33,179 nt of DNA from positions 1 to 33,179 of the IMG/VR virus record IMGVR_UViG_3300049893_001356; one strand, written 5' to 3'. The notes below the pieces were generated by a model, which did not search any database, was not told the DNA's origin, and saw only the letters and a list, made by a program, of their open reading frames with translations. The position numbers were made by a program, and so were the translations under genes. Numbering within the stretch: the stretch's first letter is position 1; each line of letters opens with the position of its first letter. Source of the DNA: a virus. This document shows positions 692 to 31,230 of the stretch, piece by piece.

Positions 692-1078
692 ATTGCCTGT
701 CGCTGGTGGTAGCGGGCGTTTTTATGCCTGCCCCTGTTTTTCGTGGCTGAGATCCCTTGCTACCACTGGGCTGTTTTTGGGTTTATGCCCGTTTTCAGGG
801 AGGGGTAAGCCCATCTGCCGTCTTGCTTTAAGTCTCTTGAGACGCGGCTACTGGCTCCAGTCCCCCGGGCTGCTGGTGGCTGGTGGCTTGCCCCTCTCAG
901 GATCGCCTGGCGGAGCGCAGCGACGCCAAAGGGCGCTTGATAAGCGCCCGGCTGTTGGCTGTTTAGGACCCCTAAGGGTTAGCCCGCCCTACTACCCGCA
1001 CCCCTAAGGGTCCCCTGCTAGCGGGGCTGCTAGGGGTCTCTCCTGCAATCCCCCAAACCCCTTGCGCTGCAACGGTTC
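692..1078. other. gene-less region between convergent operons
   Basis: I see no convincing gene here; the open frame on the plus strand runs through the terminator and has low-complexity content. The region holds inverted repeats: GTGGTAGC (706-713) with GCTACCAC (759-766), and an 8-bp hairpin GGGCGCTT/AAGCGCCC with a 3-base loop (931-949). It also holds the 16-mer CCCTTGCTACCACTGG at 754-769, which is repeated exactly at 4346-4361, and the CCCCTAAGGG elements listed separately. It separates rightward genes ending at 661 from leftward genes ending at 1079. Confidence 0.6.
968..1039. repeat. ACCCCTAAGGGT repeats and nested hairpin
   Basis: The near-palindrome ACCCCTAAGGGT occurs at 968-979 and again at 1000-1011, 32 bases apart. 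A related inverted element CTAGGGGT lies at 1031-1038, and a CCCC/GGGG hairpin around GCTAGC sits between. Read on the minus strand these form nested stems just downstream of the leftward operon, so they could act in termination or 3'-end protection, but no clear T-run follows. Confidence 0.5.
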
Positions 1079-1219: not shown

Positions 1220-1362
1220 GGCCCCACGCCCACCCCATTCGAGGGCTTTTGCATTAAAGGGCGGCTGCTATTAAAGGCGCCGATGTCATTAAAGGCCGCC
1301 TTGCGGCCGTTATCCAGCCCGGCGAAATACACGCCCACCAGAATCACGCCCTCAATGGCCAC
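1216..1362 (-). CDS. small hypothetical protein (48 aa), possible membrane anchor
   Basis: The frame is open well upstream, but the upstream part shadows the 86-aa gene. The best start is GTG at 1362-1360, overlapping the end of that gene. It would give 48 residues with a hydrophobic N-terminus (AIEGVILVGVYFAG) followed by a polar tail. Its stop overlaps the ATG of the next gene. No strong Shine-Dalgarno sequence is visible, so the start is uncertain. The DNA carries a triple ATTAAAGG repeat that encodes the AFN-containing part. Function unknown. Confidence 0.45.
   Translation of the reverse strand: MAIEGVILVGVYFAGLDNGRKAAFNDIGAFNSSRPLMQKPSNGVGVGP
1253..1295. repeat. three direct ATTAAAGG repeats
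   Basis: ATTAAAGG occurs at 1253-1260, 1270-1277 and 1288-1295, spaced 17 and 18 bases, each followed by a GC-rich segment. On the minus strand the unit reads CCTTTAAT and lies inside the 48-aa gene. It may be a small tandem expansion or a helically phased binding array. Confidence 0.55.
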
Positions 1363-2646: not shown

Positions 2647-3249
2647 TCAGAAGGGCATCTTGAACGGATCACCACCGCTCAGCAGCGCTTCGAGGTTGTA
2701 ACCCTCCTGCTCTGCCTCGCTCCAGGCGGCGTCAACCTCAGCCTTGACGGTGCCCTTGCGTTTGCCGGGCTTCAACACCACCGAATAGCGGGTCTCCATC
2801 CCACTACCGCTGCGGGTGAGCTCGAAGTCCCACGCTCCGGGGTCAGCTGCCACGTCTTCATCGCTGAAGAGGCTGGCCAGGGTTTCGAGGATCGAAACTT
2901 GGCTGGCTTGGAACAGCTGCACACTGCTGGTGGCGTAGTTCCAGACGAAGCAGGCCAGCGCCATCTTCATCTTGGTGGGGTTGCCGCGTTGATCGACCAG
3001 CTCCACACCTTCGTCGGTGGCGCGGTCGTTCAATTCCTTGCTGGTGGGCTCATCAGCGAAGCGCAGGCACTTGGGCTTGCCATCGCTGGTGCGTCCCCAG
3101 ATCTCGAAGAAATCCAGGCTGCTTGTTCCCACAGGGGAGAAGCGAACCGACTCACCGTCTCCCAGAGAACCAGGATTCAGGTAGCTGGAACCGCCGGTGC
3201 TCTTGGGACGATCCTTCAGAGCAACCAGACGGGAAGAAGCAAAACTCAT
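2647..3249 (-). CDS. probable phage single-stranded DNA-binding protein
   Basis: This 200-residue protein has a beta-rich middle (SLDFFEIWGRT, KPKCLRFADEP, KMKMALACFVWNYA) and ends GGDPFKMPF. A short C-terminal tip with an acidic residue followed by PF-type hydrophobics resembles the protein-interaction tail of phage and bacterial SSBs. The N-terminal segment has the charged, flexible look of phage SSB-like proteins. It is the first gene of the leftward operon that includes the exonuclease, with a good promoter upstream at 3286-3314. I infer SSB from tail, size and context; a structural match would be needed to confirm an OB fold. Confidence 0.6.
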   Translation of the reverse strand: MSFASSRLVALKDRPKSTGGSSYLNPGSLGDGESVRFSPVGTSSLDFFEIWGRTSDGKPKCLRFADEPTSKELNDRATDEGVELVDQRGNPTKMKMALACFVWNYATSSVQLFQASQVSILETLASLFSDEDVAADPGAWDFELTRSGSGMETRYSVVLKPGKRKGTVKAEVDAAWSEAEQEGYNLEALLSGGDPFKMPF

Positions 3250-3285: not shown

Positions 3286-3314
3286 AGCCTACTGCCCTTA
3301 AGTAATTAGGTCAA
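3286..3314 (-). promoter_or_regulatory. sigma70-type promoter with operator in the spacer
   Basis: On the minus strand, TTGACC (3314-3309) is followed after 17 bases by TAGGCT (3291-3286), upstream of the SSB-like gene. The spacer holds TTACTTAAGG (3305-3296), the motif repeated in front of other units. A protein bound there would block polymerase. Confidence 0.65.
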
Positions 3315-3550
3315 CCGTCTTGGAGGGACTTCAGGGCGCTGCTGCGCAGCTCTGTCAGATCCAGCTGGTGGGCAACCCTGGCGAGCACCTCGAACAGCTC
3401 AGACCGGTTGGCACCCAGGGATGCAGCAGCTTCGGTCCACAGCTCCCACGCATCGTTGGTGACGCTGAGGGTGCGCTGCACTTTGTTGGACTGCCAGCTG
3501 GTCTGGCTGGCTTTGCCGCCCATGGGGCGGCTCACTGGTGTCGCAGTCAT
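3311..3550 (-). CDS. ribbon-helix-helix (CopG/Arc-like) regulator
   Basis: This is a 79-residue protein. After a disordered N-terminus (1-22), residues 25-33 (QRTLSVTND) look like the DNA-contacting beta ribbon. They are followed by helix A (about 34-46, AWELWTEAAASLG) and helix B (about 48-63, NRSELFEVLARVAHQL), with the N-R-S turn common in RHH proteins. RHH dimers bind short palindromes as repressors. Its own promoter (3572-3599) carries the TTACTTAA motif in the spacer, so autoregulation and control of the motif set is a reasonable inference. It sits between the SSB operon and the 216-aa gene. Confidence 0.65.
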   Translation of the reverse strand: MTATPVSRPMGGKASQTSWQSNKVQRTLSVTNDAWELWTEAAASLGANRSELFEVLARVAHQLDLTELRSSALKSLQDG

Positions 3551-3571: not shown

Positions 3572-3599
3572 ATTCTACCTTACTTAATTAAGCCACCAA
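3572..3599 (-). promoter_or_regulatory. promoter of the RHH gene with operator in the spacer
   Basis: On the minus strand, TTGGTG (3599-3594), a 16-base spacer and TAGAAT (3577-3572) precede the RHH start at 3550. The spacer is almost wholly filled by CCTTACTTAATTAAG (3578-3592 on the plus strand), which contains the palindrome CTTAATTAAG. The promoter overlaps the 3' end of the 216-aa gene. Confidence 0.65.
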
Positions 3600-4230
3600 G
3601 GAAATCCCACAGCTCCTCCACCGTCGTGTCCAGTTCCTTGGCCACCGCTGGTAGCGCCTCGATCAACTTCTCCCCTCGCAGGTCCTTGCCGGTGGTCAGT
3701 TCCCTGAACGCTGGACTGGCTTGCATCAACCGTTGTTGATCTGAGACCACGAAATCCACGCCACGCTTCGCCAGCTCCATCCGCACCCACTTCCCAAACT
3801 CCTGGGAGACCCGAGCTTCCTGATCCATGGGGATCTCACGCTCCTCGGGGAGCTGCAGGTCCAGCTCCCCCGTGAAGGCCAGGAACATCTCCGCTGGTCC
3901 CATCACCTCACCGCTGGGCAACCTCATGGGCTGAGCATCCTTCCAGTGCTGCTCCAGCGTCTTGGGGAGCTTGCCTTCCGCGAGCATCAAATTGAACTTG
4001 CCCAACGACAGCAGCACCTTCGGTGCCGGATCCAAGAGGGTGCCGGTGGCAAACCCTGTGATCTGGCTGGAGTGCACCACCCGATCACCTAACCCCTGCA
4101 GCGTGAGCTTCAGCAACGTGGGCTGGCTCCACTGACGGGCGAAGGGCTTAAACACCCTGCGGAACTGCTCCCTGCCGCTGGTGCACTGCAATGTCACCGG
4201 GCCTGGGGGGTACTTGCTTGGCTTGCCCAT
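3580..4230 (-). CDS. hypothetical protein (216 aa), possible replication/partition factor
   Basis: This 216-residue protein has a basic N-terminus (MGKPSKYPPGPV, then RRVFKPFARQW) and an acidic helical C-terminus (TTVEELWDFLGGL). I do not recognise the family. It starts ATG at 4230, after a possible promoter (4251-4279), and its gene lies immediately downstream of the 12-bp repeat array at 4327-4553, as an origin-binding or array-binding protein might. That role is inference from position alone. Its 3' end overlaps the promoter of the RHH gene. Confidence 0.65.
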   Translation of the reverse strand: MGKPSKYPPGPVTLQCTSGREQFRRVFKPFARQWSQPTLLKLTLQGLGDRVVHSSQITGFATGTLLDPAPKVLLSLGKFNLMLAEGKLPKTLEQHWKDAQPMRLPSGEVMGPAEMFLAFTGELDLQLPEEREIPMDQEARVSQEFGKWVRMELAKRGVDFVVSDQQRLMQASPAFRELTTGKDLRGEKLIEALPAVAKELDTTVEELWDFLGGLIK

Positions 4231-4250
4231 GGTCTTGGGGTCCTGGGGGC

Positions 4251-4279
4251 GTTATAGGGAGACCCTTATTTAACTACGG
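4251..4279 (-). promoter_or_regulatory. weak promoter with operator-like motif
   Basis: On the minus strand, TATAAC (4256-4251) is a good -10 element upstream of the 216-aa gene. The -35 position at 17-base spacing is poor (CCGTAG). The spacer again carries the shared motif as CCTTATTTAA (4264-4273, plus strand), one mismatch from CCTTACTTAA. Confidence 0.45.
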
Positions 4280-4303
4280 ATTAGGGGAGTGGTGTGAAAA
4301 GGA

Positions 4304-4553
4304 GGGTGAGGGGGTGGAGAGTGTTTTGTTTGTTTACTACTAGAACCCTTGCTACCACTGGAAAGTAAACCAACATCCTCCCCACACCCACCCGAGTAAA
4401 CCAACAACCCTCAAAAAGAAAACCAACATGTTGGTTTACTCCCTTTGTTGGTTTGCTTTGTTGGTTTACTCCCCTGTCTTTCCAAGGCTTCTCAGCGAAA
4501 AACCGACTAAACCAACAACTTCCCCCCTCACCCCCTCACCCAGTAAACAAACA
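4304..4553. repeat. iteron-like 12-bp repeat array, candidate origin
   Basis: Nine copies of AGTAAACCAACA or its complement TGTTGGTTTACT occur. Exact copies lie at 4364-4375, 4395-4406, 4429-4440 and 4459-4470; one-mismatch copies lie at 4327-4338, 4417-4428, 4446-4457, 4506-4517 and 4542-4553. The copies at 4417-4440 abut head to head as a 24-bp near-palindrome. A 13-bp inverted repeat GGGTGAGGGGGTG (4304-4316) and its complement (4529-4541) flanks most of the array. The array fills the gap between the primase-helicase stop and the 216-aa gene, as expected for replication iterons, though operators for one regulator would look similar. Confidence 0.8.
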
Positions 4554-6858
4554 CCGGCTTGCAGCTTCCAGGCCGCTTATCCGCATCACGCATCAAACCC
4601 GGGTACTGCGTGCTCACCAGTCCCTTCACCACCCGCTCCACGGAACCCCTGTGGGTGTTCACCAGCCCACTCAGCTCCATCAAGTCCAGTGCTGTGTCTC
4701 GGTTGCGACCCTTCAGTGCCTCAACCACCTTTGCCTTCAGGCCCCGCAACTTCTCAGTCCCGTCCTGCTCCCCGTTGTGCGAGGTGATCGTCAGCGACAG
4801 GTCCTCACGGCTACCCAGCATCTCGAAGCGATCGCCCGCATCCGTGATGCCGGTGCGAGGCTTCAGCACCGTCAACACGAACTTCGGCTCCTTCGACTCC
4901 ACATCCTTCACCACCGCCCATACGTCGCTAGCCCCGTTGACGATGTAGCTGCTGCCGAACAGGTCCCCCAGGTGCACCTCCTTCCGGCCACCTGACTTGC
5001 TCTTGTCCATCTTCCTCAGGTGGTGCGTCAGCAAAATCGCCACGCCCTCCTCACTGGCGATCTGGTTCAGCCGATACAGGTGCAACCCCACCTCGGCCTC
5101 ACCCATTCCCGCAGTACCGCCCCCGAACAGCGAGCCGAAGCTGTCCATCACCACCACCTTCGCCTGGTGATCACGAATCCACTTCCGCAGCTCTGGATAC
5201 ATCGCCGCGTTGAAGTTGAACTGGAAGCGGATCGAACCCTCAGGCACCTCCATCCCCATCAGCCGCAACTTCTGGGCAGCGTTGGCGGCGCTCTCATCCT
5301 TCTGCACCACCAGCACGTTCCCGCGGATCGCCTGGAGCTGGCCGCCAAACTTCGCGCCGTTCGCCACTGCCTCAGCCACGCGGTAAATCAGCACCGACTT
5401 ACCCACGCCGCCATCAGCCGCAACCATCGTCACCGCACCAAGCGCCAGCAGGTTCTCAATCGCTGGTGAGATCTCCGCCGCGTTGGCCAGCACCTCCTCC
5501 AGCGTCCCCGCATTGAATCCCGATGTCAGTTCCTCCTGCATGAGCTTCACCAGCTCTGACATCTCCGATTCCTTGCACCCGACAATTCTCGTCAACTCCT
5601 GATACGAGGCCAGGCGATCCACCGGTGAATCCATGTCGTCGATCACCGCCAGGGCCTCGCGCAGCTTCTGAACCTTCTTTGCCGCACCGGTGGTGAAGTC
5701 GTCGATATCAATGGCCTTCGGCGGTAGCGCCCACTTCGGGAACTCGAACCCGCCGTCCTTCGCCGCGGCCACGATCGAGCCCCATCCGCACTTGCTCTCC
5801 TCGTCGGTGGCGCTGCGGCCCAGTGAATCCATCAGCTGCTCAAAGCTGCCCAGGTTCCCGTCGGCCCAGTCGTTGCGGCGATCCCACATCTGCCCGCCCA
5901 GCCACGCCAGGGCGGTGTCCTTGCCCAGCACATTCAGTAGGCCCGCCACCAGCGAGCGCACTCGGTTGTAGTGGCCCGCCTGCGGCGAATCGGCCGGTGC
6001 GCCGCGATACGGCCAGTGCTTCTGCATCAGTAATAGAAGCCGGCGCTGGTCCTTCGCCAACAGCAGATCGCAGGGCTGCGGCTCGCCGGCCGCACGCCGC
6101 CCCGCAAAGCTGTCGTCCTCGCACACCTTCGGCGCCAGTTCCTTCTGCACCTGGCGGATGAAGCCGCCCAGCACCCACGGCGGCGCCACCTTCACGCCCA
6201 CCACCGCCGGGTGCAGCCCGTCGATCCACTCATAAGCCAGCGGGTGAGACTCAGTGGACTTGGGATGAGTGCCAGCGATCACGGCCTGGCGGGAGGTGCC
6301 CGTGCCGTTCACCCAGATCGCTTCAAAAGCGTGCTGCTTGCCGTCGGCATACGGCCCGCAGGCCAGTGACCAGTTGCCGAACTCCGGCCACCAGTCCTCG
6401 GGCACCTGCAGGAACACCTTGCGGCGGCCGCGGCGACCGCTGGTGTTGCTGGCCGTGATCGGCAGCTCGCTGCTCGGGCGGCCGAACACCTGCTGGAAGG
6501 TGATCTCGGCCAGGCCGTCGAGCGCCATGTCCTCTGGCTCATCGAAATCCAGCACCAGCAACCCGCCGCTCGCCGGGCCGGTGTGCACCCCCGCGCCGAT
6601 GCACTGCTTCACAAACGGGCCGTTCTGGGTCAGCAGCTGCAGCGCCGTGTAGCGCTTGGCCGGATCGCTGTTCCACCGGCTCTCAAAACAGTCCTTCACC
6701 GAGCCGCGGTTGCCGGTGCCGCAGAGGCGCCACTGCTCAGGCAATCCAGCTAGCTGGTGCAGGTGCTCAGGAGGGATGCGGCTGCCGATTTCCTTGTGCG
6801 CGTGCTTCAGCAGCTCCAGGTCGTCCTCGAACTGAGGACCCATCCCACTCGACGCCAT
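4528..6858 (-). CDS. PrimPol-RepA-like helicase fusion (primase-helicase)
   Basis: This is a 776-residue replication protein. Residues about 10-235 look like an archaeo-eukaryotic primase/PrimPol domain: GLLVLDFDEP gives the hhhDhD metal motif (D104, D106), a GRRGRRKVF segment follows, and IAGTHPKSTESHP (about 195-206) matches the third motif region. Residues about 465-650 form a RecA/RepA-type ATPase with Walker A ADGGVGKS (481-488, K487), Walker B KVVVMDS (D572) and a sensor-like LLTHHLRK (609-616). The C-terminus (about 705-776) looks like a winged helix. It would prime and unwind DNA at the fork beside the polymerase encoded on the other strand. The ATG at 6858 has GGAG four bases upstream. 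The last codons overlap the repeat array. Confidence 0.88.
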   Translation of the reverse strand: MASSGMGPQFEDDLELLKHAHKEIGSRIPPEHLHQLAGLPEQWRLCGTGNRGSVKDCFESRWNSDPAKRYTALQLLTQNGPFVKQCIGAGVHTGPASGGLLVLDFDEPEDMALDGLAEITFQQVFGRPSSELPITASNTSGRRGRRKVFLQVPEDWWPEFGNWSLACGPYADGKQHAFEAIWVNGTGTSRQAVIAGTHPKSTESHPLAYEWIDGLHPAVVGVKVAPPWVLGGFIRQVQKELAPKVCEDDSFAGRRAAGEPQPCDLLLAKDQRRLLLLMQKHWPYRGAPADSPQAGHYNRVRSLVAGLLNVLGKDTALAWLGGQMWDRRNDWADGNLGSFEQLMDSLGRSATDEESKCGWGSIVAAAKDGGFEFPKWALPPKAIDIDDFTTGAAKKVQKLREALAVIDDMDSPVDRLASYQELTRIVGCKESEMSELVKLMQEELTSGFNAGTLEEVLANAAEISPAIENLLALGAVTMVAADGGVGKSVLIYRVAEAVANGAKFGGQLQAIRGNVLVVQKDESAANAAQKLRLMGMEVPEGSIRFQFNFNAAMYPELRKWIRDHQAKVVVMDSFGSLFGGGTAGMGEAEVGLHLYRLNQIASEEGVAILLTHHLRKMDKSKSGGRKEVHLGDLFGSSYIVNGASDVWAVVKDVESKEPKFVLTVLKPRTGITDAGDRFEMLGSREDLSLTITSHNGEQDGTEKLRGLKAKVVEALKGRNRDTALDLMELSGLVNTHRGSVERVVKGLVSTQYPGLMRDADKRPGSCKPVFVYWVRG

Positions 6859-6981
6859 AAGGCTCCACCCACGAATCCAAACCTAGATAAGGTGCTGCAG
6901 CCTGCTGAACCCGTAAAGGTTTCCCGCCTGTCGCTTTGGGACTTAAGGCAAGACCCTTAAGTAAGGTGATATGGTCGGGCC
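6859..6981. promoter_or_regulatory. divergent control region with paired operators
   Basis: This 123-bp gap separates the leftward primase-helicase from the rightward early genes. It holds an inverted repeat ACTTAAGG (6941-6948), 6 bases, CCTTAAGT (6955-6962). The second arm extends to CCTTAAGTAAGG (6955-6966). Just after it, TGATATGGT (6967-6975) could be an extended -10 for the gene at 6982. A CCTAGATAAGG element (6882-6892) lies on the primase side. The -35 elements are unclear in both directions. Confidence 0.55.
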
Positions 6982-8368: not shown

Positions 8369-10173
8369 ACCTCACCGCTGAAATCCAGGCGCTGGGCAGC
8401 ACCATCTGCCTGGACATGGAGACCGCCATGGCGCCCCTGTCTTTTCAGGGTCGCAAACATGTTCGATTACTCCAGTTGCTTTCTGATGAAGGAGAGGTTT
8501 GGTACGACCTGCAGACTTTTAGTGACGCCGACTGGGCTGAGCTGAAGGCGGCTCTGGAAGACCCCACCATCATGTGGGTCATCCAGAACGCGATTTTTGA
8601 TTACCGCGTTCTGCTGGGCTGCGGCATCCGCCTCAACGGCCGCCTGGAGGACACCCTCGTTCAGTCGGCGCTGCTCAACAACGGACTGCCCAACATCTCC
8701 AACTCCCTGGAGGCCATCGCCAAGCGGGTGCTCGGGGAGGTGGTGGATAAGTCCCTGCAGAAGCAGGACTGGATGAACGCCACCCTCGACGATGCAGATC
8801 TTGCATACGCCATGGGAGACGTTCGCCTGACCTGGCGGGCCTGGCAGGAGCAGCGCGCCCAGATCAAGACCGCCGGCCTGCAGAAGGTCTACGACCTGGA
8901 GTGCTCGCTCATCCCGGCGGTGGTGGAGATGGAGCACAGCGGAATGCTGGTGGATCAGCCCCAGGCCCTGGCCGCCATCGAGAAGCTGGAAGAGGAGATC
9001 GGCGTCAGCCGCGGTGAGTTCCTCGAAGTCCTTGATTCCCAACTGCGGGAACTTCACGGCGAGGGGCTACCGCGGGAGCCCGACGGTAGCTTCAACCTTC
9101 GTGCGAAGAAGGCCCTCAAGCGCGATGGCGGCGCACCCGCTGGCTTCAACATCAACAGCCCCGCGCAGGTGATCAAGAACCTGCAGCTGGTGGGCATCGA
9201 GCCCGTCGATCCCAAGACCAGCAAGCCCACCACCGACAAGAAGGTGCTGCGCCCGCTGGCCGACAACCCAGTCGTAGCAAGCCTTTTGGCCTACAAGCGG
9301 GCGGAGAAGCGCCGCTCGATGATCCAGAGCTGGCTGGACAAGAACATCGAGGCTGACGGGCGCATCCACGCCCGCTTCGCTCCGCTTTCCACCGGCACCG
9401 GGCGCTTCTCCTGCTCGGCTCCCAACATGCAGCAGATCCCGCGGGAGTCCTACATCCGCGATTGCTTCGTAGCCAAGGACGGCCACGAGCTGGTGGTGAT
9501 GGATGTCAAAAACATGGAGATGGGGGTGGCCTGCTCAGAGCCCATCGCCAATGAGCAGCTGATGCAAACCGCGCTGCGCGAATCGGTGGACCTGCACACC
9601 CTCACCGGCCATCTGATCTTTCACGTCCCCATCGAGGAGGTGGGCAAAGAGGAGCGCCAGCGGGCCAAGTCCTGCAACTTCGGCTTGCTCTTTGGAAGTG
9701 GTGCCCCTGGCCTGAAGGACTACTTCGCCTCCTTCGGCAACACCATCACCCTCGATGAGGCCACCGAGTTCCGCAAGTCCTGGCTGGCGGCCTATCCGGC
9801 GATGGCCGAGTGGCACCGCAAGGCCAAGTACGAATGCGAGCGCGGTGAGGTGCGGATGGTGGATGGCCGGCGCCGCTGGCTGGTGGGTGATCAGGCCCGC
9901 CCCACCGTCTGGCTCAACAATTTGGTGCAGGGCACCGCCGCTTCAATCGTCAAGCAGACGATGGTGGGAATCTGGCCGCGGCTGCCCAAGGGCGCACGCC
10001 TCATCGCTCAGATCCACGACGAACTGATCGTCGAGGCGCCCGAAGGCAGCGGTGAGGAGGTGCTGGATGTCATGAAAACGCAGCTCCTGCTCGCTGGTCG
10101 GCTGATCATTGGCGACTCGGTGGACATGCTCGGCGAGGGCTCCGTCGCCAAGTCGTGGGGCCAGGCCAAATGA
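8365..10173 (+). CDS. phage DNA polymerase, family A, with 3'-5' exonuclease
   Basis: This is a 602-residue polymerase starting GTG at 8365. The exonuclease domain shows CLDMET (D17, E19), NAIFDY (N75, D79) and YAMGD (Y148, D152). The polymerase domain shows the TGRFSCSAPNMQQIPR segment (about 345-360), motif B R431-K435-F439-F443-G444 and motif C QIHDE (H551, D552, E553). Motif A is odd: MDVKNMEMG in place of the usual DYSQIELR. The metal-binding D380 and the E385 equivalent are kept, but S, Q and the R are replaced. There is no 5' nuclease domain, as usual for phage enzymes. It lies in an overlapping early operon and presumably replicates the phage genome with the PrimPol-helicase. Confidence 0.95.
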   Translation: MNLTAEIQALGSTICLDMETAMAPLSFQGRKHVRLLQLLSDEGEVWYDLQTFSDADWAELKAALEDPTIMWVIQNAIFDYRVLLGCGIRLNGRLEDTLVQSALLNNGLPNISNSLEAIAKRVLGEVVDKSLQKQDWMNATLDDADLAYAMGDVRLTWRAWQEQRAQIKTAGLQKVYDLECSLIPAVVEMEHSGMLVDQPQALAAIEKLEEEIGVSRGEFLEVLDSQLRELHGEGLPREPDGSFNLRAKKALKRDGGAPAGFNINSPAQVIKNLQLVGIEPVDPKTSKPTTDKKVLRPLADNPVVASLLAYKRAEKRRSMIQSWLDKNIEADGRIHARFAPLSTGTGRFSCSAPNMQQIPRESYIRDCFVAKDGHELVVMDVKNMEMGVACSEPIANEQLMQTALRESVDLHTLTGHLIFHVPIEEVGKEERQRAKSCNFGLLFGSGAPGLKDYFASFGNTITLDEATEFRKSWLAAYPAMAEWHRKAKYECERGEVRMVDGRRRWLVGDQARPTVWLNNLVQGTAASIVKQTMVGIWPRLPKGARLIAQIHDELIVEAPEGSGEEVLDVMKTQLLLAGRLIIGDSVDMLGEGSVAKSWGQAK

Positions 10174-10631
10174 CCTACAGCCTCCACAAGGTCTGCGCGG
10201 CGCCTGGGTGCAAGACCCGCGTGTATGGCGTGGGGATCTTCTGCGCCAAGTGCTTCTCGCAGACCCCGGAGGGCAAGCGGCAAAAGCAACAGCAGGAGCA
10301 GCGCCGCCGCTACGAAATCAAGGAGAGCAACCGCATCGCCAGCGGGTTACCCGCCCCGGCGGTGCACTGCACCCGCTGCATCCACTGGCATCACGGCTGC
10401 TGCATGGGGTTCCCGGAAGGGATCGGTAGCTTTGCTGAGGAATGTGCCGTGTTCTCCGTGACCGCGATTGACCTCGACCTGGAAACCAACCACCCCGATG
10501 TTCAGGAGATGGTGCAGGGCCGTCTGGATCGCGCTTACGAACTGGCGGGTCGCTCTGACCCAGCCCATCCATTCTTTTCACGGTATACTGGTGTATTCGA
10601 TGAGCTACACGCGAAGGGGATTCCCATTTGA
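10170..10631 (+). CDS. two-cluster zinc-binding protein (153 aa)
   Basis: The ATG at 10170 overlaps the polymerase stop (ATGA). The N-terminus has C9, C14, C25 and C28, a likely zinc site, followed by a basic helix (KRQKQQQEQRRRYEIKE). A second cluster has C67, C70, C77, C78 and C92 (HCTRCIHW then CCMGFPEG and EECAVF). The pattern CxxC...C.GFPE...C..F recurs in small phage and bacterial proteins of unknown role. Nucleic-acid binding is plausible from the zinc sites and basic helix. It is followed by the HNH gene. Confidence 0.65.
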   Translation: MTYSLHKVCAAPGCKTRVYGVGIFCAKCFSQTPEGKRQKQQQEQRRRYEIKESNRIASGLPAPAVHCTRCIHWHHGCCMGFPEGIGSFAEECAVFSVTAIDLDLETNHPDVQEMVQGRLDRAYELAGRSDPAHPFFSRYTGVFDELHAKGIPI

Positions 10632-11677: not shown

Positions 11678-11903
11678 CTTGACTTTAGAAGCAGCGCCTA
11701 GGCCCGTGCTCAACGAACTCGCCCTTGATCGCCAAATCCTTTCTCTCGCAAACGATCTCAGCCGTTTGATCGAGTCCCTGCACCGATTGAGCGACGCCCC
11801 GCATTGTGAAGATGTGGACAGGGCTGAGTGCGTATCGGAATGCCAGGAGGTGCTGCAGCACGCACAGGCCCTTCTCTCTGAAATCGCCCATGACCATCGT
11901 TGA
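11673..11903 (+). CDS. hypothetical protein (about 76 aa)
   Basis: The frame opens with GTG at 11673; an in-frame TTG at 11679 with TAAGG five bases upstream is an equally good start. The product is helical and acidic (NELALDRQILSLANDLSRLI, then ECQEVLQHAQALLSEIAHD). It overlaps the integrase start by 14 bases, so it may be coupled to integrase translation, as excisionase or directionality factors sometimes are. There is no HTH signature to support an excisionase call. Confidence 0.55.
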   Translation: MPLTLEAAPRPVLNELALDRQILSLANDLSRLIESLHRLSDAPHCEDVDRAECVSECQEVLQHAQALLSEIAHDHR

Positions 11904-12756
11904 TCTCTGGCAGGCGTACTGGCAGGAGCGCTCGGTCGCTGTTGCTGAAACGTCGCAGGCCCACGGCTACCTGCAGGTGCAGAAGTGGCTGGAGCGTTGC
12001 CCCATCCAGGACCCCGAGCAGGGGCGCCTGATCCTCTTGTGGCTTCTCAAGCAGGAGCCCAAGAAGTCCGCGCTCCGCATCGCCCTCTACCTGAAGACCC
12101 TCTACAAGTGGGCCGCTCAGGACGACGTGGCTCTGGTGTCCCGCAACGTCATCGCCTCATTCAAGCTGCCCAAGGCGCCCCAGATGCCTGACCCCACCGT
12201 CATCCCGGAGGATCTGGTGGGTGAAGTGCTCTGGGCGCTGAAGCAATCGAGCGACCGCAGCCCGGTGGGTCACCGCTGGGATCTGCTGGCCAACTTCATG
12301 CTCCAGACCGGGATGCGCACCTGCGAAGCCTTCGGGCTCACCTGGGCTGACATCGACCTGGAAGCCCGCAAGGCGCTGGTGCACCAGAACATGACCATCA
12401 CCCACGGCCTCTCGCCCCGCACCAAGACCGGCAGGCCGCGGCAGGTCCCCCTTAACGCCACCGCACTTAGCATCCTTAAGGAGGTAAGGCGGCTCGGTCA
12501 CGAGGAGGAGTTCATCTTCCCCTGGTCACGCAAGACGTTCATGACGACCTTTCGTAACGCCATGGCCCGCCTTGTCCGTGACGGCGTGACCACCATCCGC
12601 TTCCGCCCTTACGACCTGCGCCACACCAACATCTCTGCGCTCCTTGAGCGTGGGATCCCCGTGACGCAGGTGGCTCAGTGGGCTGGCAACTCAGCCGAGA
12701 TGATCTGGTCCCACTACGCCGGCACCACCAAGACCTACGACATGCCGGATCTGTGA
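11890..12756 (+). CDS. int: tyrosine recombinase/integrase
   Basis: This 288-residue integrase starts at ATG 11890 (MTIVDLWQAYW); longer frames shadow the previous gene. Residues 1-90 form a SAM-like core-binding domain. The catalytic domain (about 100-280) has QTGMRTCEA (R143), K179 in the RTKTGRPRQVPL hairpin, YDLRHT (R244) and SHYAG (nucleophile Y276). Two of the classic positions differ: the first His of HxxR is Tyr (Y241) and the later His/Trp is Asn (N267 in WAGNS). I believe such substitutions occur in cyanobacterial integrases, so it is probably active. It implies a temperate or integrating element; the attachment site is not identified. Confidence 0.92.
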   Translation: MTIVDLWQAYWQERSVAVAETSQAHGYLQVQKWLERCPIQDPEQGRLILLWLLKQEPKKSALRIALYLKTLYKWAAQDDVALVSRNVIASFKLPKAPQMPDPTVIPEDLVGEVLWALKQSSDRSPVGHRWDLLANFMLQTGMRTCEAFGLTWADIDLEARKALVHQNMTITHGLSPRTKTGRPRQVPLNATALSILKEVRRLGHEEEFIFPWSRKTFMTTFRNAMARLVRDGVTTIRFRPYDLRHTNISALLERGIPVTQVAQWAGNSAEMIWSHYAGTTKTYDMPDL

Positions 12757-29800: not shown

Positions 29801-31230
29801 TCAGCCTTAATGCGCTCCGCGTTTTGCTGGCGCAGGATCTCGACCGAGCGAGCGTCGATGGCGGCTTGTTCGCTGAGCGCCTTGGTGCGGGTGCGTAAGA
29901 CCTGCACCGACTTGCCTTCCAGCACCGTGCGGGCTTGTGTCTTCTGCAGGGCGTCCTCGGCGGCCTGTTTCGTCAACGCCTGCGCGTTGAGCATCTGCCG
30001 GTAGCCCTCTTGGGCGGTGCGGGTGTTGCCGCCGGGGAACAACTGGCCGCCGGCCGGCACTTGGCCCAGCCCGTAGTTCGCACCCTGCAGCCGGGACTGG
30101 CGAGCGGCCATAGCGGCCTCGCCTTCGCGCAGCACTTTCAGCCAGTTGTAGCGGACCTCCAGGTTTTGCTTCGCCAGCTCAGCTTCCTGCTTGGCCAGCT
30201 CCACCAGGGTGCGAGCAGCGGCAGCGCTCTTCAGCCGCTCACGGGCCGCTGCAGACTCGGCCGCTTCCTTGGCCCGCAGTGCGGCCAGCTCCGTCTGGGC
30301 ATTGGCGGCAGCTTCGGAATCACGCTTCTGAGCGTTGCGGCCGGAGGTGAGGGTGGAGCGGCGGCGGGCCACCTCCGCGTCGCGGACGTCTTGGGGCTGG
30401 AGGCCCTTGGCCTGGCGGACGAGTTCGTTGAGGGCGCGCTGCTCGGTGACTTGAGCTTTCTGGGCGCGGACTAGACCTTGTGCGGCTTCCCAAGCTCCTT
30501 GCGTGGAGGAGTGGAAGCTCTGCATCTCCTTGGTGAGAGATGAGACCTGGCTGTTGAGCTGGCGGAGGGACATGCCCTCGGCCAACTCGTTCATGGTCTT
30601 GACGGTCGTTTCGATCGTCGTGTTGAGGCCGAGGAAGGACTGCTTGGTCTCCTCGACCTTGCCCTTCATGCCGCCGATGGCGGCCTGGATCTTGCCGCCG
30701 AGGGCGAGGTTGTCGAGGCCGGTGACGACCTTGCGGACCGCCGGGCCAAACGCCATGAAGGCGGCGGTGGCCGCAGCAATGCCACCAGCAGTGGCCAGGC
30801 CCTGGGGGCCAAGGGCGGCTAGGGCAGCCGCAACCTTTGCGGCAGGTGCGCTGATGCCAGCTAGGACGCCGCCAAATGCCTGAAGGGCCTGCGTTCCACC
30901 GGTGGCAAACTTCGGCAGCGCCGATAGGGCGGTGCCCAGTGCATTGATGCCGGCGACACCGACCGCGGTTTTGCCCGCGAAGTCGAAGGCTTTGGCGATG
31001 TCGCCCAGCCGTTTTCCGAAGCCGCCGAGTTTGTTATCGAGGGCGCTGAGGGTGCGCCCGTAGTCCTGGAGATTGCGTTGGGCGAGCTTGACCCCCGCCT
31101 GGGCGGCGCCCTTACCCAGATCGAGGGTGTAGGAACTCAGCCCCTTGAGAAGCTTGTCGAGCTTGCTGAGTTCTCTCTCAGCGTCCTTCGTGCTCGCTGT
31201 GACCTTGATGTTCTGGTTGTAGTCAGCCAA
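26812..31230 (-). CDS. tail tape measure protein with embedded peptidase-like domain
   Basis: This is a 1472-residue tape measure. It is long and helical with many K/E/A/Q coiled-coil stretches and three hydrophobic zones (about 80-205, 510-565 and 1275-1340). Near the C-terminus is the usual ASGGSPTPGQPTIVGERGPE segment of phage tape measures. Residues about 935-1015 form a compact insert with HGGNNYHEHIAY (H953, H955), then SYHYDGRAFD (H996, D1003), which fits the SxHxxGxAxD zinc motif of M15-type peptidases. The HxH comes before that motif rather than after it. The domain could cut peptidoglycan during DNA entry. Length suggests a long flexible tail. A terminator lies just upstream (31274-31300), so expression may be kept below that of the tube protein. 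Confidence 0.92.
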   Translation of the reverse strand: MADYNQNIKVTASTKDAERELSKLDKLLKGLSSYTLDLGKGAAQAGVKLAQRNLQDYGRTLSALDNKLGGFGKRLGDIAKAFDFAGKTAVGVAGINALGTALSALPKFATGGTQALQAFGGVLAGISAPAAKVAAALAALGPQGLATAGGIAAATAAFMAFGPAVRKVVTGLDNLALGGKIQAAIGGMKGKVEETKQSFLGLNTTIETTVKTMNELAEGMSLRQLNSQVSSLTKEMQSFHSSTQGAWEAAQGLVRAQKAQVTEQRALNELVRQAKGLQPQDVRDAEVARRRSTLTSGRNAQKRDSEAAANAQTELAALRAKEAAESAAARERLKSAAAARTLVELAKQEAELAKQNLEVRYNWLKVLREGEAAMAARQSRLQGANYGLGQVPAGGQLFPGGNTRTAQEGYRQMLNAQALTKQAAEDALQKTQARTVLEGKSVQVLRTRTKALSEQAAIDARSVEILRQQNAERIKAEQLDARALTVARRQVQLADLKNKKKKGEELQKRVENTLVSGAFPLLFGAGPLATAGGFAGGALGSANPMIGVFTSAIGQVMDQFAAAAMDMGKALRDPITNFQKIKDAGLLAGKSQEYYVQKLIEVGRVTEAAAVVQGEIAKKIGYQGVSDLQQLGVEADNLSKAWAELNLSMQALIAGPLGDLLRLLAGPITTTNGVNQMAALEKDLKATGLGGKFEEFKRRDQAFRSLGPEEGTKARLKLIEEYRKLLPAPTGGTKISPEAQEQARKAAEAQADAIKSAYREAFQLQRQAADITMAAADFRRKVESDIFAKNQEAARQEIDNARKAAQLRIEASDLALRKQFSGSQGLTEELLNGVRAFISARRAGEADIAQKRRQLEVNLADINKATADYIYEQAKSRLQLERQIEDYKMAVADYQLKVARQVQEQNVINGALGTPAGGGGPGVPGRIGQPIEYLTGDRSSSGYRADHGGNNYHEHIAYATAKEARAAAELLNKAGIKTTELKGVNPVGRHSPNSYHYDGRAFDVPAAQVPVGQEQALSRRVRQILGIGGNGAAAQFRTAAAGVPRPTFGAPGADTQGMVAANDRLIKAKQEELALEQKLQQLNIEKGLFDLQELAQGKSRTQELSQQRDLEKAKLGLMTTAGAMSENELERVLKQAEGESQINAIYTARDEVLKQINDAVKQGKLTQDEANVVLKEINTGLETRVATTRAQIALEQELLKVQQEQQYLLEKANAERQLSTAGAGLNAGFIGGAGDKYESTLQKYGSPEKAAELARLQEATDLATMKAQALESAYMGVGGAISSAMTQGVADLVSGAKTAEQVFADMLKGIGDALISAAQQMIATYIAIGIAKMFAGMSGGSTPGGGAPNLDLSGFKAYPMLASGGSPTPGQPTIVGERGPELFVPGQSGGITNNQNLRSMMASNDIKARGRDNAPVLNMNFETTKFMDRDWVDREQLEAAMAQSAKKGAADGERRAMDRLRQSPRTRRSLGL

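Follow-up and report, generated by a model that had tools for sequence, protein, structure and literature searches.

A dense cluster of short repeats in both orientations lies between a primase-helicase gene and a gene for a 216-aa protein in a viral DNA, raising the question of whether it marks a replication origin, an operator or another kind of site, and which protein would read it. The DNA analyzed (hereafter the window, 33,179 nucleotides of a virus record) encodes a family A DNA polymerase and an integrase (11806–12756). No close annotated isolate of this phage was found: the only annotated isolates matching the primase-helicase (PrimPol) were S-CBS4 and S-LBS1, both infecting Synechococcus and both matching weakly, and scans of cyanobacterial genome contigs with PrimPol and with the SSB-like protein returned no prophage relative. 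The hosts are probably picocyanobacteria. Searches with PrimPol and the 216-aa protein provided relatives with a complete 3′ end, namely L003 (= L005), L004, L006 and L007; L017 was found via the 216-aa alignment.

Architecture of the array

When up to two mismatches were allowed, the 12-bp word AGTAAACCAACA matched the window 10 times, compared with 1.0 expected (sd 1.0; 100 shuffles, largest 4). Nine matches fall within 227 bp (4327–4553), four of them exact (4364–4375 and 4395–4406 on the plus strand, 4429–4440 and 4459–4470 on the minus strand) and five with one mismatch (4327–4338 and 4446–4457, minus; 4417–4428, 4506–4517 and 4542–4553, plus); the tenth carries two mismatches and lies outside the array in the 33-kb window. 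An unbiased scan for 8-mer repeats in 350-bp windows also ranked the array above every other cluster in the window. The nine copies within about 230 bases described in the earlier note were thereby borne out, as was its head-to-head pair at 4417–4440, in which the copies at 4417 (+) and 4429 (−) contribute the left and right halves of a central palindrome, AAACCAACATGTTGGTTT (4420–4437, no strand). A scan of viral contigs for this palindrome gave no match beyond the L006 contig. The 13-bp inverted repeat reported at the borders proved to be exact: a distal G-rich arm, GGGTGAGGGGGTG, occupies 4304–4316 (plus strand; C-rich in the PrimPol direction), and its exact complement, the proximal G-rich arm, occupies 4529–4541 (minus strand) and overlaps the PrimPol stop codon (4528–4530). 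The ninth copy (4542–4553) is part of the PrimPol coding sequence and encodes conserved residues of the wing strand (VFVYW) and may therefore be coincidental coding and not a true iteron.

The repeats and arms stood as described, while an inner inverted pair of a second element, el2, had been missed. One member is a degenerate copy, AGAACCCTTGCTACCACTGG (4342–4361, plus strand), the other is CGCTGAGAAGCCTTGGAAAGACAGGGG (4471–4497, minus strand). In the PrimPol direction, i.e., along the minus strand of the window, the eight intergenic iterons are oriented − + + + − − − +. The proximal half consists of the G-rich arm at the stop codon, an iteron (−), el2 (+) and three iterons (+ + +); beyond the center at 4428/4429, the distal half consists of three iterons (− − −), el2 (−), an iteron (+) and the C-rich arm. 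Arms, iterons and el2 are thus symmetric in order and form one nested dyad. The window, L004 and L006 share the spacings between iteron and el2 (29 bp) and between el2 and iteron (18 bp, here from 4471–4497 to the next iteron), and the variant form of the outer iteron beside the C-rich arm (AGTAAACAAACA; 4327–4338 in the window) is conserved in L004 and L006, too. Paired G/C arms with the same geometry were present in L003, L004 and L006; they were less clear in L007 and lacking in L017, S-LBS1 and S-H1, the modules with other initiator classes.

The proposed initiator and the repeat word in relatives

The proposed initiator, the PrimPol-helicase (776 aa; 4528–6858, minus strand), combines a Prim-Pol domain (PF09250, E 6e-5) and an AAA_25 ATPase domain (PF13481, E 3.5e-22) with a C-terminal winged-helix domain (4531–4752, minus strand), the proposed iteron reader. 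An AF2 model of the C-terminal part displayed a winged helix of the order H-H-H-strand-strand (helices 41–58, 69–76 and 80–92; strands 98–103 and 112–117) with a pLDDT of about 80–90 over that part, and a Foldseek search with this model matched winged-helix domains, the best at E 6e-3 and many at a probability of 1.0. The predicted recognition helix, RGSVERVVKGLVS, is encoded at 4612–4650 (minus strand). The array begins at the PrimPol stop codon, directly downstream of the gene, both in the window and in relatives with a complete region. Next come the genes for the 216-aa protein (3580–4230, minus strand), an RHH-type protein of 79 aa (3311–3550, minus strand) and an SSB-like protein (2647–3249, minus strand; phrog_1192, weak); an exonuclease gene also lies downstream. 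No family could be assigned to the 216-aa protein, whose all-helical model gave a weak XRE/C-protein-like HTH match (E at least 1, probability about 0.9).

The order initiator, array, 216-aa, RHH and SSB-like gene was kept in five IMG/VR relatives. The outcome that the earlier note named as refuting, loss of the array from relatives with both flanking genes, did not occur: each of the four PrimPol relatives whose intergenic region is complete has an array there, and so does L017. The repeat word itself changed: it is TAAACCAACA in the window, L004 and L006, TTTAATCAACC in L003, GTGATCC(WNAA) in L007 and TTCGACAGTTG in L017. Counting words by locus gave an almost diagonal picture of six words, each essentially confined to its own initiator group. 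L003, L006 and L017 have three different words, yet their 216-aa proteins are 86–91% and their RHH proteins 94–98% identical, with an identical putative RHH beta strand. The window, L004 and L006 share one word although their 216-aa proteins are only 58–60% and their RHH proteins 54–64% identical (58% and 56% for the window and L006). Since near-identical proteins accompany three words, the 216-aa and RHH proteins, which the earlier note had put forward as candidate binders, do not appear to be the repeat readers. The recognition helix, in contrast, contains HRGSVERVVK in the window, L004 and L006, and is diverged in L003 (HPTAVSRVVK) and L007 (VSRVTCKRAL).

The DNA alignment of L003 and L006 pointed to the borders of the exchange. 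Identity amounts to 82–88% in the N-terminal half of PrimPol, drops to 44–48% in the winged helix and array, and recovers to 81–88% from the 216-aa gene on. L017 goes further: its PrimPol-helicase is wholly replaced by an unrelated DUF3987 protein (4227–6599), followed at the same place by its own TTCGACAGTTG array, while the downstream genes are nearly unchanged. The unit of exchange is thus either helicase, winged helix and array, or the initiator together with the array. The N-terminal part of the DUF3987 protein resembles the PrimPol of S-2L. Judged from these alignments, the repeat word tracks the upstream initiator and not the downstream genes. The assignment of repeat specificity to the C-terminal domain is a matter of comparative covariation across five PrimPol-AAA_25 sequences, the only ones with a complete C-terminus plus array, and because the winged helix adjoins the array, linkage alone could make both travel together.

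The second element and arrays in other phages

The element el2 is a 23-bp motif, TGAGAWCCCTTGSTATSACWGGG, located inside the arrays, in several of them as degenerate copies. An exact-pattern scan detected a slightly wider form in 85 viral contigs, compared with roughly 0.2 expected by a rough estimate. Its copies lie mostly in non-coding DNA. Most are located outside arrays, and el2 by itself therefore does not mark an origin. The annotated phages that match well comprise podo-, sipho- and myoviruses, most of which infect Synechococcus or Prochlorococcus; carriers include the viral contig loci L032–L111 as well as S-CBP4, S-CBP42, S-H1, S-B68, P-SSM4, S-RSM4, ACG-2014f and P-SSP7. Four exact variants of the el2 core occurred in none of the papers examined. 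A single el2-like copy also occurs in non-coding DNA near a terS-like gene, at the same place in three phages and 3.5–4.5 kb from the array (window 745–771; L003 9130–9156; L006 12189–12215). Two interpretations of el2 were rejected. A structured RNA was considered, and its outer stem lacked covariation and no Rfam match was obtained (five sources searched). A pairing with the 216-aa protein was considered because el2 and the protein segment HSSQI[TS]GFATG are conserved together; dozens of unrelated el2 contigs contained no 216-aa homologue in the DNA examined.

Arrays after initiator genes were also encountered among isolates. In S-LBS1, which encodes a Prim-Pol and VapE-like protein, about 17 copies of AGGTTRGGCAG directly follow the primase gene; the words "repeat" and "iteron" are both absent from the S-LBS1 paper. 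Part of this repeat region is present twice, as a direct repeat, near the end of the S-LBS1 record (L022 6152–6556). S-H1, with a TOPRIM primase-helicase, has copies of ACCGTTMGGA at the end of the gene and after it. Behind the related ATPase gene of S-CBS4 no array was seen, and any array in S-2L is weak, so an array after the initiator is not a universal rule.

Two further kinds of site were noted in this region of the genomes. In relatives, imperfect palindromes resembling ACTTACSTAAGT stand in front of many replication-operon genes; such sites are found in the window at 3296–3310, 3579–3591 and 6950–6962, and in L003 at 4983–5000 and 6145–6160. This motif, distinct from the array, probably serves as an early promoter or operator. 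A second repeat cluster, of GCCATTCA, lies between the exonuclease region and terS in L003 (about 8690–8780), L006 (11320–11690) and L017 (about 9951–10300). The same place in the window (1252–1297) holds another word, ATTAAAGG, in three copies; by comparison of these clusters, the word seems to have changed here likewise between the window and L003, L006 and L017.

Function of the array

Initiators of several mobile elements offer points of comparison. In SaPI Rep, the C-terminal domain recognizes iterons that immediately follow the gene; that of SCCmec Cch2, taken on its own, binds the putative Cch2 origin (PMC7581432). As in SaPI Rep/ori, short repeats are clustered directly 3′ of an initiator helicase gene whose product has a predicted C-terminal DNA-binding domain. 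SaPI Rep, however, contains a DUF927 or Primase_Cterm/D5-like helicase, whereas Prim-Pol and AAA_25 are fused here and the iterons belong to a long dyad that also includes G-rich arms and a second element. With its AAA_25 helicase, the phage protein thus works like the SaPI Rep families without being a member. ORF904 of plasmid pRN1 and the phage BIP-1 protein share the fusion of prim-pol, helicase and C-terminal winged helix in one polypeptide, and also an essential region immediately 3′ of the gene that folds strongly and is poorly conserved; in pRN1 this region is needed, and the binding motifs modelled there are "not yet identified" (PMC4234260). In contrast to the AAA_25 domain and clear iterons found here, pRN1 has an SF3 helicase and a 100-bp stem-loop without iterons. 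Alpha of phage P4 is described as a primase-helicase with a winged helix binding origin repeats (PMC4234260). Its primase is of the TOPRIM type, that of the window of the Prim-Pol type. A second repeat site, crr, is required in P4, while no second iteron cluster is present in the window, which is part of a genome. The system works like SaPI Rep, pRN1 and P4 but differs from what defines them in helicase or primase type. By description it also resembles the PrimQH primases, in which an AEP domain is combined with an exchangeable ATPase (RepA, DnaB, VirE, DUF927 or DUF3987) and a C-terminal WH domain (Kazlauskas et al. 2018, PMC5862659).

As far as comparative sequence data can tell, the array is likely to be the phage replication origin, that is, one half of a self-contained initiator–origin module read by the winged helix of PrimPol. 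The earlier suggestion of origin-type iterons beside a primase-helicase gains from the arrays in relatives and from the joint exchange of word and initiator; its other candidate binders, the 216-aa and RHH proteins, gain no such support. In the mechanism that we propose, the PrimPol-helicase, encoded just upstream, would recognize the 12-bp iterons via its C-terminal winged helix and assemble on the dyad in two opposed orientations. The AAA_25 ATPase would open the AT-richer DNA of the array (45% GC, compared with 61% overall) and the Prim-Pol domain would lay primers, presumably at this site; the phage DNA polymerase A would extend them outward, with replication starting here and running in both directions. 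No distinct AT-rich unwinding element was found in the array, which counts against an origin. More speculatively, the arms might be used for outward priming: in the PrimPol direction, the top strand carries the G-rich sequence in the proximal arm and the bottom strand carries it in the distal arm, so that primers made on both would point outward. The primase of pRN1 starts at GTG (PMC4234260), and the arms of the window contain GTG.

Other functions have to be weighed against an origin. RHH proteins bind tandem operators, and the array, located upstream of the start codon of the 216-aa gene, might be an operator through which the 216-aa protein, with the weak XRE-like HTH resemblance of its model, or the RHH protein controls the downstream replication operon. 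This is very unlikely given the near-identity of both proteins in L003, L006 and L017 in the presence of three unrelated words. Moreover, a separate ACTTACSTAAGT-like motif sits between the array and the 216-aa start in the same three phages, and neither a sigma-70 promoter nor an intrinsic terminator was found at 4150–4650. A role as a phage attachment or parS-like partition site would agree with the presence of integrase and RHH genes, and recombinases or RHH proteins can have inverted repeats as their sites. The integrase gene (11806–12756) is nevertheless 7 kb away and the window contains no tRNA gene; the genes examined included no recognizable partition ATPase and the word changes independently of the RHH protein, so that we regard such a role as highly improbable. 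Harder to dismiss is the idea that binding of the initiator's winged helix to the array chiefly serves autoregulation of transcription or copy number, with replication starting elsewhere. Covariation can at best tell that the array is read by the initiator; it does not make the array an origin, and known iterons often serve both replication and regulation. The cumulative GC skew, proposed earlier as a check, peaks at 967, is lowest at 30,292 and does not change direction at 4.4 kb; it lends an origin at the array no support, with the coding strand dominating the skew of this 33-kb fragment. Autoregulation is still unlikely, as the array follows the initiator gene instead of lying at its promoter, there is no other cluster of AGTAAACCAACA in the window, and replication requires the sequence immediately 3′ of the initiator gene in SaPIs and, according to deletion data, in pRN1.

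Another possibility is a variant of the origin rather than its exclusion: the origin might work as an extruded stem-loop, as in pRN1, with the repeats serving only as pairing arms of one large imperfect palindrome. Both strands of the array fold far better than dinucleotide shuffles (z about −5.5), and strong folding was also obtained for L003, L006 and L007. The orientations in L007 are + − − − + + + −, and matching word variants pair across the center. Shuffling only the spacers lowered the stability in the window (z = −2.3), L003 (−4.8), L007 (−6.5) and L017 (−4.0), so that part of the symmetry exceeds the words. A single long hairpin is not conserved, however: the L006 array folds into several hairpins, L004 has no stability beyond its words (z = −0.4), and the orientations in L017 and S-LBS1 are imperfect dyads. 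The constancy of the word within each array also argues against mere pairing arms, and we consider a stem-loop rather unlikely as the working form.

For a replication origin read by the initiator, we can only tentatively offer an extension to two layers, which we would sooner doubt than assume. Iterons would be exchanged together with the initiator, even across the non-homologous primases Prim-Pol/AAA_25 and DUF3987, and would be combined with a constant el2 that a conserved host factor would presumably recognize; among modules of the Prim-Pol/AAA_25 class, the opposed G-rich arms would serve as templates for outward priming. Origin recognition by the C-terminal WH domain had already been predicted for Prim-Pol proteins of phages and plasmids (PMC5862659, PMC4234260); what the cyanophages add is comparative evidence from their sequences. 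They amount to a natural swap experiment, in which near-identical downstream genes are combined with a different initiator and a different repeat word, and the window, L003, L006, L007 and L017 offer matched protein–word pairs for binding assays. The arrays of S-LBS1 and S-H1 are candidate origins for those isolates, and arrays of this kind may be possible replicon parts for picocyanobacteria.
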